A stretch of 40,254 bases of DNA from Clostridia bacterium (lineage in GTDB: Bacteria > Bacillota > Clostridia > Oscillospirales > CAG-272): positions 1-40,254 of the forward strand of contig JAFVYZ010000030.1 in assembly GCA_017508425.1 (NCBI GenBank), read 5' to 3'. Positions 10,400 to 36,992 of the stretch are shown one piece after another; the first letter of the stretch is position 1, and every line of letters starts with the position of its first letter. Position numbers and translations under genes: made by a program. The notes below the pieces were generated by a model. The model saw only the letters and a program-made list of their open reading frames with translations, did no database searches and was not told the origin of the DNA.

Positions 10400-10476
<77 letters not shown>

Positions 10477-20362: not shown

Positions 20363-20636
20363 AATGAAATAGCAAAAGACTATGACGGAAATCTTGCCCC
20401 ATATTCCTATGCCCAAGAGAGTCGGCGGTTGGTGTGAGCCGATGCAAACGGTATGGGTGCCCTCTCTCCCGAGTCTGTCCTGTCAACGCCACGGTCAGTA
20501 GCAGGACACGGCAGCCCCCGTTACAGGGCCGGCCCTTTTTGGGGCTTTTGAGTGATTTCCCTGCTTGGGGGTAATCAGGGTGGTACCGCGAAGATTTTTC
20601 GTCCCTGAAGCCGATTGCGGCTCGGGGCTTTTTTGT
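20363..20636 (+). promoter_or_regulatory. T-box riboswitch leader, specifier CTC (Leu)
   Basis: Stem I begins AAAGACTATGACGGA and contains the same AGAGAGTCGGCGGTTGGTG apical block as the divergent leader. The T-box core TGGTACCGCG is exact (20581-20590). The antiterminator pairs CAGGG with CCCTG (about 20575-20608). The terminator is GCCG-attg-CGGC extended by CCC/GGG, with a T6 tail ending near 20635. At the position aligned with ATC of the other leader the codon is CTC (20462-20464). Controls the LeuA-like gene and the two after it. Confidence 0.9.
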
Positions 20637-24582: not shown

Positions 24583-25365
24583 ATGATGAGTGATACGGCA
24601 AAAACAATTTTCTACATTGTCTTGGCGCTGCTCCTGATCGTTCCCTTTGCGGTGCTTTTCTTCCTGCACGGCAAAACCGACCTTTTGTGCGGCTTTGACA
24701 AATTTTATTTCTTCGCCACTGCCATTTTGGTATTCGCACTGTGGGCGATCATGCAATTCGATGAAGCTCCCATTGGCTTAACGATCGGCATATGGGTCGC
24801 TGTCGGCGTGCTTGCCCTGCTCTCGGGCATTGGCGAAAATGACGCGACCCTGCTGCGCGGTGGCGCTATGGTGCTCCTCGCACTCTCCTTTATCACGGCA
24901 TCGCTACACGTCGCGTTTTTGCACAATTTCCCCACCGTATGGGCGACAATTTATGCGCTGCTGCCGATCGTTTCCTTCTTTATCATCCCCGCATTTATTG
25001 ATTATGCGCCCAACATCAAGGATCTCGGCGCACCCCTTGGCATCATCGCCGTGGCCTCCATCCCCGCAGCACTGCTGATCGACAAGCTTTGCGACATCTT
25101 CTCGGGAGTCATTCCCTCGGGCGCTCGCACCTCCTCCCGACGCACGGTATCCTTCTCGTCGGTGGAAAGCGCCATGCGCGCCTACAACCGCACCAGCACC
25201 AAGTGCGTGGGCGGTGTGAAGCAACACGGCAGCACGATCATCGTGCAGCTCTCGGGCATTCACGGCTACTCCGTCTCGGGCTGGGAGGCAGCCCAAGTCC
25301 GCCGGCACCTTGAAAGCTGGCTTAAAGTCGATCTTGACCGTACCAACATTTCTATTTATTACTAA
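24583..25365 (+). CDS. Unknown membrane protein with C-terminal soluble domain
   Basis: 260 aa; family not recognised. About six hydrophobic segments fill residues 8-175. A Ser/Thr/Arg-rich linker (about 180-195) leads to a ~65-residue soluble tail containing VESAMRAYNRTSTKC, STIIVQLSGIHGYSVSGWE and a final ISIYY strand. ATG preceded by AAGGAG. It follows the ligase fusion by 9 bp and so belongs to the Leu T-box operon; transport or sensing of branched-chain acids is possible but unsupported. Its TAA overlaps the left arm of the terminator that encloses the large repeat element. Confidence 0.75.
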   Translation: MMSDTAKTIFYIVLALLLIVPFAVLFFLHGKTDLLCGFDKFYFFATAILVFALWAIMQFDEAPIGLTIGIWVAVGVLALLSGIGENDATLLRGGAMVLLALSFITASLHVAFLHNFPTVWATIYALLPIVSFFIIPAFIDYAPNIKDLGAPLGIIAVASIPAALLIDKLCDIFSGVIPSGARTSSRRTVSFSSVESAMRAYNRTSTKCVGGVKQHGSTIIVQLSGIHGYSVSGWEAAQVRRHLESWLKVDLDRTNISIYY

Positions 25366-25757
25366 AAAAAATCCCCGCAGCTTTAGCGTGATGTCCTTAA
25401 CGGACAAATCACGCTAAACTATGATTGCCCTTTGGGCAAGTTATGAGTTATGATATGCCTTGCATAGTTATGATTGGCTTCGCCAAGTTACAGGTTAGAT
25501 GGGCAATCATATCATAACGCTTAGGTTTACCCAAGCTCATAGCGCGAGCAAAGCGAGCCTCATAACTCTAAACTAAGAACTAACAGAAAAGAGAGAACAT
25601 TTCGGATTAAAAATCGATTTGCTCTCTCTTTCTGTCGTTATAAGGGCTTGGGCTTAGCCCATATTTGCGTTTGACTAGTCAAATGCGATGCTCGCACTTT
25701 TTGTAGAGTGTAAATTCTCCGATAAGAACATCACCCATTGCCGTGGGGATTTTTTTG
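25364..25757 (+). repeat. ~393-bp structured repeat nested in an intrinsic terminator (copy A)
   Basis: Outer arms AAAAAAATCCCC (25365-25376) and GGGGATTTTTTT (25745-25756) are perfectly complementary and look like one terminator stem. Inside, in order: hairpin TTAGCGTGAT/ATCACGCTAA (25383-25417); an array of mini-hairpins spaced by GTTATGAT-like units (25418-25583); stem AAGAGAGA/TCTCTCTT (about 25589-25632); GGGCTTAGCCC; palindrome TTTGACTAGTCAAA (25670-25683); hairpin TGCGA-tgc-TCGCA (25684-25696); TAAGAACATCACC (25723-25735). The same order of blocks occurs in copy B at 36593-36992. No protein is likely here. Confidence 0.85.
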
Positions 25758-36592: not shown

Positions 36593-36992
36593 AAAAAACG
36601 GCACTCCGCAAATAGGTGATGTTCTTAGCGGAGTATTTGAAAGACATGATGAAGTGCGAGCATCACATTTGACCGGTCAAATACTTTATGGGCTAACCCC
36701 AAACCCATATTACAAACAAAAAGAGATAACAAATCGGTTCTTCGCCGAAATGTTATCTCTTTCTCTGTTTTTTAATGAAATCGTGGCAAGCCACGATGAA
36801 ATCTTCACTTCGTTCAGATGAAATCCAAGACACGCCTTGGATGAAATCAAATCCGTCTAAATACAACCCTGCGAAGCAGGATTTCTTCGCGAAAGTGATT
36901 TCATCCGCCATAGGTGGATTTCACCCGTCGAAGACGGATTTGACTGCGTGATTGTCCGTTAAGGACATCACGCTAAGGGAGTGCCGTTTTGA
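36593..36992 (-). repeat. ~395-bp structured repeat nested in an intrinsic terminator (copy B)
   Basis: Inverted relative to copy A. Outer arms AAAACGGCACTCC (36595-36607) and GGAGTGCCGTTTT (36978-36990) are perfectly complementary and form a terminator for the minus-strand lipoprotein gene, whose stop is 3 bp away. Minus-strand order matches copy A: GCGTGAT hairpin (36976-36946); mini-hairpin array with GATGAAATC spacers (36945-36778); stem AAAGAGATAACA/TGTTATCTCTTT (36762-36720); GTTAGCCCAT; palindrome TTTGACCGGTCAAA (36681-36668); TGTGA-tgc-TCGCA (36667-36655); TAAGAACATCACC (36627-36615). An 82-codon frame across it is not believed. Confidence 0.85.

Follow-up and report, generated by a model that had tools for sequence, protein, structure and literature searches.

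Multi-targeting serine recombinases are under development as genome tools, and their sites are called relaxed and often A/T-rich. For the clade of large serine recombinases with a DUF4368 domain, the available text of two papers (PMC10083194, PMC13137831) describes many unrelated sites of relaxed specificity, some with TT cores and T/A-enriched ends, others with AA cores and A/G and C/G ends, and, in the case of Cp36, a free core with A/T-enriched ends. One enzyme of the clade integrates in Streptomyces at sites that have only the TT core in common, as far as described in the available text (PMC13137831); hence terminators are not strictly needed by the enzymes of this clade. The word "terminator" has no occurrence in the main texts of PMC10083194 and PMC13137831, and in the part of the open-licence literature that was covered we found no mention of terminators as targets of serine recombinases. 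Some of the published DUF4368 sites could fit a terminator with its A tract and T tract. A structured RNA that touches on the elements described below, Gut-1, was described in 2010 as a likely non-coding RNA and from human gut sequence only, according to the available text of PMC2864571.

Here we analysed a stretch of 40,254 nucleotides from a Clostridia bacterium (contig JAFVYZ010000030.1), which we call the window and which also holds a T-box leader (20373-20609) and a tRNA gene (10400-10473). Two structured copies of about 395 bp, which we call copy A and copy B, had originally been predicted in it, and they hold up in position, strand, order of the conserved blocks, which align between both, and in the distinct paired outer stem around each. 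We consider it probable that copies A and B belong to a non-autonomous kind of mobile element, moved by a large serine recombinase that is supplied in trans and for which an intrinsic terminator is the attachment site attB.

Copy A lies on the forward strand. The stop codon of its upstream gene is found at 25363-25365, and the left arm of the host terminator, AAAAAAATCCCC (25365..25376), pairs as the outer stem with the right arm GGGGATTTTTTT (25745..25756), which contains the T run. Inside these arms are the left and the right crossover dinucleotide, both TT (25383..25384 and 25738..25739), the left one being placed by the offset of the shared dinucleotide (k = 2, i = 4, j = 4) and by the core counts given below. 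Between them lies the element proper, which extends from end to end with one spacer base per side (25385..25737). It consists of a hairpin-type (H) end, GCGTGATGTCCTTAACGGACAAATCACGC (25386..25414), an array of short hairpins with TTATGA-like linkers, delimited by eye and by folding (25415..25580), an internal hairpin whose arms co-vary between elements and which scores 9.0 in this copy (25587..25631), a 14-bp palindrome, TTTGACTAGTCAAA (25670..25683), a conserved block, GATGCTCGCAC (25687..25697), and an R-type end, that is, an inverted copy of the terminal half-site, on the minus strand (25715..25736).

Copy B is found on the minus strand. The stop codon of the upstream gene (36996-36994) is followed by the left arm of the host terminator, AAAACGGCACTCC (36978..36990), the core TT (36976-36975), the element proper (36613..36974, with the H end at 36973 and the R end at 36614), again the core TT (36612-36611), and the right arm with its T run, GGAGTGCCGTTTT (36595..36607). 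Both copies are about 355-360 bp in size, and neither contains a reading frame of the size of a DUF4368 recombinase. When folded, they have z values of -11.7 (copy A) and -10.4 (copy B) compared with dinucleotide shuffles, none of 100 shuffles being as good, and the outer stem is paired in the best predicted structure of each. By eye, each copy seems to use one linker throughout its array (TTATGA at 25415-25580 in copy A, GAAAT at 36790-36970 in copy B), and other elements have other linkers; this looks like concerted change.

An element has a terminal half-site, about GCGTGATGTCCTTAACGGAGAA, at each end, the two copies being inverted relative to each other; the end sequence is N-GCGTGAT, with a 2-bp repeat alongside, and the H end can in addition fold into a hairpin of its own. 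We compared the interior across the 31 elements of 290-430 bp among 35 elements that could be oriented. The internal hairpin scores at least 10 in 28 of the 31, with 20 different 5' arms, that is, the pairing is kept in spite of changed arms. The palindrome (read as TTTGN6CAAA) is present in 24 and the conserved block, if up to three changes are allowed, in 27 of the 31. RNAalifold, applied to 27 of these elements, gave few supported base pairs; the aligner had probably split the hairpin, and for this reason the arms were compared element by element instead.

In the array we see the connection to Gut-1 (RF01706). A search of 20 related loci found three above the cut-off of 50 bits (L155 with 57.2, L090 with 54.5 and L145 with 51.4), each of them within an element. 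Copy B has a match below the cut-off (42.9 bits, 36893..36989 on the minus strand), as does L004, another element of the same genome, and copy A has none in the Rfam search. Since three loci exceed the cut-off inside elements, Gut-1 makes up the interior of this mobile element in at least some cases. Gut-1 resembles the interior hairpin arrays of L155, L090 and L145, but it spans 77 positions, and no ends, terminator or mobility are noted in the available text of PMC2864571. Apart from the Gut-1 match of copy B, the matches of the copies to Rfam at relaxed thresholds were taken as chance. The original prediction that the architecture belongs to no described family was therefore close to correct, Gut-1 being a partial exception. 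Group IIC introns associate with terminators as well; however, neither the window nor the copies have a group II intron match in Rfam.

How often do such elements sit in terminators? The genome of the window contains six elements with both ends, copies A and B included, each in a different intrinsic terminator and each with outer arms that pair (scores from 8 to 18.5). There are further single ends in this genome, for example on contigs C19, C31 and C56, for which no partner was followed, and three loci (L007, L008, L010) have interior hairpin arrays without both ends and are either decayed copies or independent arrays. Similarity to copy A was found in 41 of 147 genomes (its own included), some of the matches being to the interior array alone. 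The pattern of the ends occurs in 35 of 69 genomes; the reversed pattern, used as a control, had one match. All this refers to fragmented assemblies. Neither the viral contigs, searched with exact patterns, nor the phages and plasmids, searched by similarity, gave a match to the elements.

The flanks and the search loci yielded 61 distinct elements that have both ends, from the window genome and its relatives. Their outer stem scores at least 9 in 49 cases, compared with a mean of 6.25 for mismatched flanks; where several partner ends existed, the choice preferred stems, which favours this result a little. Homologous copies without paired flanks, which the original prediction had regarded as contrary evidence, do occur but are a minority: the stem is below 9 in 12 of the 61, with L003, L081 and L155 at 8-8.5 and L033, L069, L070, L118, L138, L149, L150, L153 and L197 lower still. 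If the flanks are joined at the core dinucleotide, a terminator-like hairpin results in 49 of the 61 (mean for mismatched flanks, 18.8%), and the 12 that fail this test are partly a different set from the 12 with weak stems. Of these 49 joints, 26 have a loop of 4 nt and 11 one of 3 nt, and in 41 the centre of the dyad is at most 1 nt away from the core, which places the crossover near the dyad centre. The flanks differ among the 61 elements, which amounts to many unrelated target sites.

It had also been predicted that the copies start near the stop codon of the upstream gene and point the same way. For copies A and B this is correct; it is not a rule, because L004 in the same genome lies opposite to its upstream gene and the distance from the stop codon varies widely among elements, presumably simply following the position of the terminator. 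We also note that in two pairs of loci (L086/L087 and L004/L089) different species have an element in the terminator behind orthologous copies of one gene, which means that certain genes have been targeted more than once. In genome G026, several nearly identical ends are found at contig breaks (the loci concerned are L124-L127 and L204, in G026 and G052), and one with 99% identity was found in another genus; this points to a recent spread. A gene inside resembles DUF559.

The central claim of the original prediction was an insertion into terminator hairpins that leaves the host stem outside. The many copies in terminators bear it out, and so does an empty site. For the two window genes, the search of 39 genomes each returned only the gene itself and one partial relative, and no empty site, so other host genes were used. 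In genome G013, the terminator behind a gene that we take from its sequence to be of the PHP type reads AAACGAACAGGCGCGCC-GCAC-GGCGCGCCTGTTCGTTTT, and behind the orthologous gene in the sister species G012 the same arms flank a 361-bp element. By eye, the empty locus (L233) and the filled one (L232) have an identical stem, with the loop GCAC where the insert sits. Orthologous terminators with and without the insert can thus be set side by side, as the prediction had envisaged, and the same stem without an insert tells us that the outer stems are host terminators. Among the best ten of 19 matches to this gene, three have an element (L227, L232 and L236), six have a plain terminator, and the remaining one continues into the gene that follows. 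The stems of the five other plain terminators differ from that of L232 and L233, and the flanks of L236 (L033 in the set of elements) pair poorly.

These observations bear on a different explanation, namely that the copies are Gut-1-like regulatory RNAs of the 3'-UTR that arose at terminators and do not move. The strong folding, the internal hairpin kept with changed arms and the Gut-1 matches would all fit such an RNA. However, both orientations relative to the genes occur, the empty orthologous terminator has already weakened this explanation, the shared dinucleotide and the inverted ends are marks of recombination, and the same ends also enclose protein genes. We hold a purely regulatory, immobile RNA to be extremely improbable; the element may be transcribed even if it is mobile.

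The position of the crossover can be read from the junctions. Two bases, located one base outside the half-site, are common to both sides in 45 of 52 elements (expected 14.4, z 11), where the 52 are those of the 61 with a stem of at least 8 or individually named (L188), a choice that favours the result a little. Of the 108 combinations of length and offset that we tested, this one stands out. In the oriented set, which comprises 35 of the 52, the H end has TT in 18, AT in 10 and another dinucleotide in 7, with AA in 2; the dinucleotide is equal on both sides in 30 and unequal in 5 of the 35. The core is thus mostly oriented. Inverted half-sites around a shared central dinucleotide, by which an element of a DUF4368 recombinase may be judged, are therefore present.

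To these small elements there are larger relatives. The half-site together with the pattern AACCGARTAGGA was found at 65 loci in named genomes, mostly Clostridia or Oscillospiraceae assemblies and many from the ruminant gut; 62 were kept and three (L276, L298 and L330) dropped as chance. The core is AA in 56 of the 62, and AAAA is found at -13 to -26 in 54 of the 62, compared with 11% of random 14-mers; the small elements have an A tract at the same distance. Reading frames were read in 8 of the 65 loci, and for 22 of them the genome was scanned for ends. A search for both ends, in which partner ends were ranked by stem and listed if the stem scored at least 9 or the right end had at most three mismatches, gave six larger elements (441, 682, 1038, 2691, 2955 and 12698 bp, outer stems 11 to 14.5), five of them with at most two mismatches in the right end. 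A seventh, of 4.6 kb (L337/L268), has no clear stem by eye. One short element (L205/L306) has, by eye, a left end of the large serine recombinase type and no proper right end; it is located in a reading frame, and it ends, on the far side, within what we take to be a truncated sigma-factor-like gene.

The longest of the six, L331, is a complete element of 12.7 kb in the terminator AAAAAGCACCTTCC/GGAAGGTGTTTTTT. It encodes a recombinase of 553 aa, whose gene ends 74 bases from the right end of the element and which contains the Resolvase, Recombinase, Zn ribbon and DUF4368 domains; its best match among solved sequences is TnpX (residues 9-123). The remaining genes of L331 include DUF6809 and FRG genes, along with genes that have weak matches, below the cut-offs, to models of type III restriction and of adenine methyltransferases. 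Among the elements examined it is the only one with a complete recombinase. L335 and L336, both at contig edges, have a recombinase tail next to this same right end, and remnants of the gene lie inside the right end of L333, L334 and L337; these remnants suggest a route by which the loss of the recombinase may leave dependent elements behind. The domains of the L331 recombinase are those of the multi-targeting DUF4368 large serine recombinases and TnpX/TndX-like transposons, and the difference is that the window elements encode no recombinase in their 355-360 bp. Since we found the DUF4368 recombinase in L331 and not in the window copies, the latter would be at most dependants of such elements. 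We infer that a recombinase of the class of L331 may move the small elements in trans, from the shared ends, the shared targets and the genome G156, in which both the small and the larger kind are present, as judged by the end sequence.

Could the small elements instead be miniature inverted-repeat elements (MITEs) of a DDE transposase, for example an IS30-like one, with 2-bp target duplications and a preference for palindromes? Like the MITEs of insertion sequences, they are short, non-coding and present in many copies, they have inverted ends and an exact 2-bp repeat, and the dinucleotide varies in the elements of the window type; IS30 prefers palindromic targets. Inverted ends with a repeat of fixed length are, however, equally expected for serine recombination, and here we see recombinase-like half-sites, a mostly fixed core and a terminator dyad as the target. 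A duplication copies any target, whereas the dinucleotide seen here is for the most part constant and has an orientation: 56 of the 62 larger elements have AA, and at the H end of the small ones TT occurs 18 times and AA twice. Furthermore, no DDE gene was recognised by eye in the elements whose frames were read, and the complete larger element with the same ends bears a serine recombinase. We therefore regard a DDE transposase as an unlikely agent.

The same ends also enclose cargo genes. In Pfam, the products match NUDIX, HAD, nucleotidyltransferase, methyltransferase, DMP19 and penicillinase-repressor (BlaI-like) families; in addition we find a P-loop protein below the cut-off and proteins without a match. 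In some of the longer elements, which have no recombinase, the first gene slot is taken by a RAYT-like or a DUF559 gene: a RAYT-like gene in L142 (NCBIfam REP_Tyr_transpos, 44 bits against a cut-off of 80) and, by resemblance, in L012, where the frame is broken by a stop, and DUF559 genes, recognised in L111 with 98 bits in Pfam and in L114 and L134 by resemblance. By eye, L111, L114, L134, L147, L148, L012 and L142 have a common backbone, with a hairpin and a promoter-like TATAAT, a gene slot, a GGGGTATGGGCTTTGCCC-like linker, a cargo gene and a terminator in this order.

We had at first thought of RAYT or DUF559 as the mobility gene and then dropped both as cargo. The corresponding explanation, in which a RAYT (Y1, HUH) enzyme or a DUF559 nuclease would move a REPIN-like element, draws on these genes lying within the same ends, but six gene-bearing elements that were read (L106, L140, L141, L161, L210 and L214) have neither gene, both genes look like cargo behind the shared promoter-like region, and the interrupted frame of L012 does not help it. 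REPIN/RAYT systems are known by a GTAG-type foot before the hairpin and are not known to have a shared junction repeat, and to our knowledge a 2-bp repeat is not expected from Y1 transposition; the ends found here are N-GCGTGAT, with the 2-bp repeat at the junctions. Taken as a REPIN-like system, the elements would make a very unlikely case.

Returning to the serine recombinase, which offers the simplest account, we propose the following mechanism. The two ends of an element would each be one half of the attachment site of a large serine recombinase, in inverted orientation, and the enzyme would come from larger integrative elements with the same ends, of which L331 is the complete example. 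The terminator would serve as attB through its dyad, in which a central A/T-rich dinucleotide is flanked at set distances by an A tract and a T tract, and would probably be recognised as double-stranded DNA. Cleavage with a 2-nt overlap would take place near the centre of the dyad, that is, in the hairpin loop, so that the two arms of the host stem would be separated and come to lie outside the element, which would have identical pairs of bases at its two sides. The element's own hairpins may then keep termination working.

In a wider sense, we lean somewhat towards the view that gut Clostridia have a general docking port in their intrinsic terminators: one class of multi-targeting serine recombinases would recognise the terminator itself as its attachment site and move parts from one terminator to another. 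Such parts would range from integrative elements that carry restriction systems, through cassettes of a single gene, to structured elements that are non-coding, Gut-1 among them. A comparison with integrons suggests itself: the gene cassettes of integrons are cargo genes moved via a shared recombination site by a tyrosine recombinase. Here, too, cargo would move via a shared site, presumably with the recombinase in trans; the difference is that there are inverted half-sites at both ends, that the docking sites are terminators scattered over the genome and that the recombinase is a serine recombinase.

For Gut-1, the results supply a mobile context for a structured RNA that was previously known to its describers from gut metagenomes only. 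They also point to a system of cassettes through which genes spread to positions behind other genes. A terminator rule would let the natural targets of multi-targeting serine recombinases be predicted in bacteria, and the docking port, if true, would be an integron-like exchange of cassettes without arrays, in which the class of targets is a regulatory structure and not a sequence.
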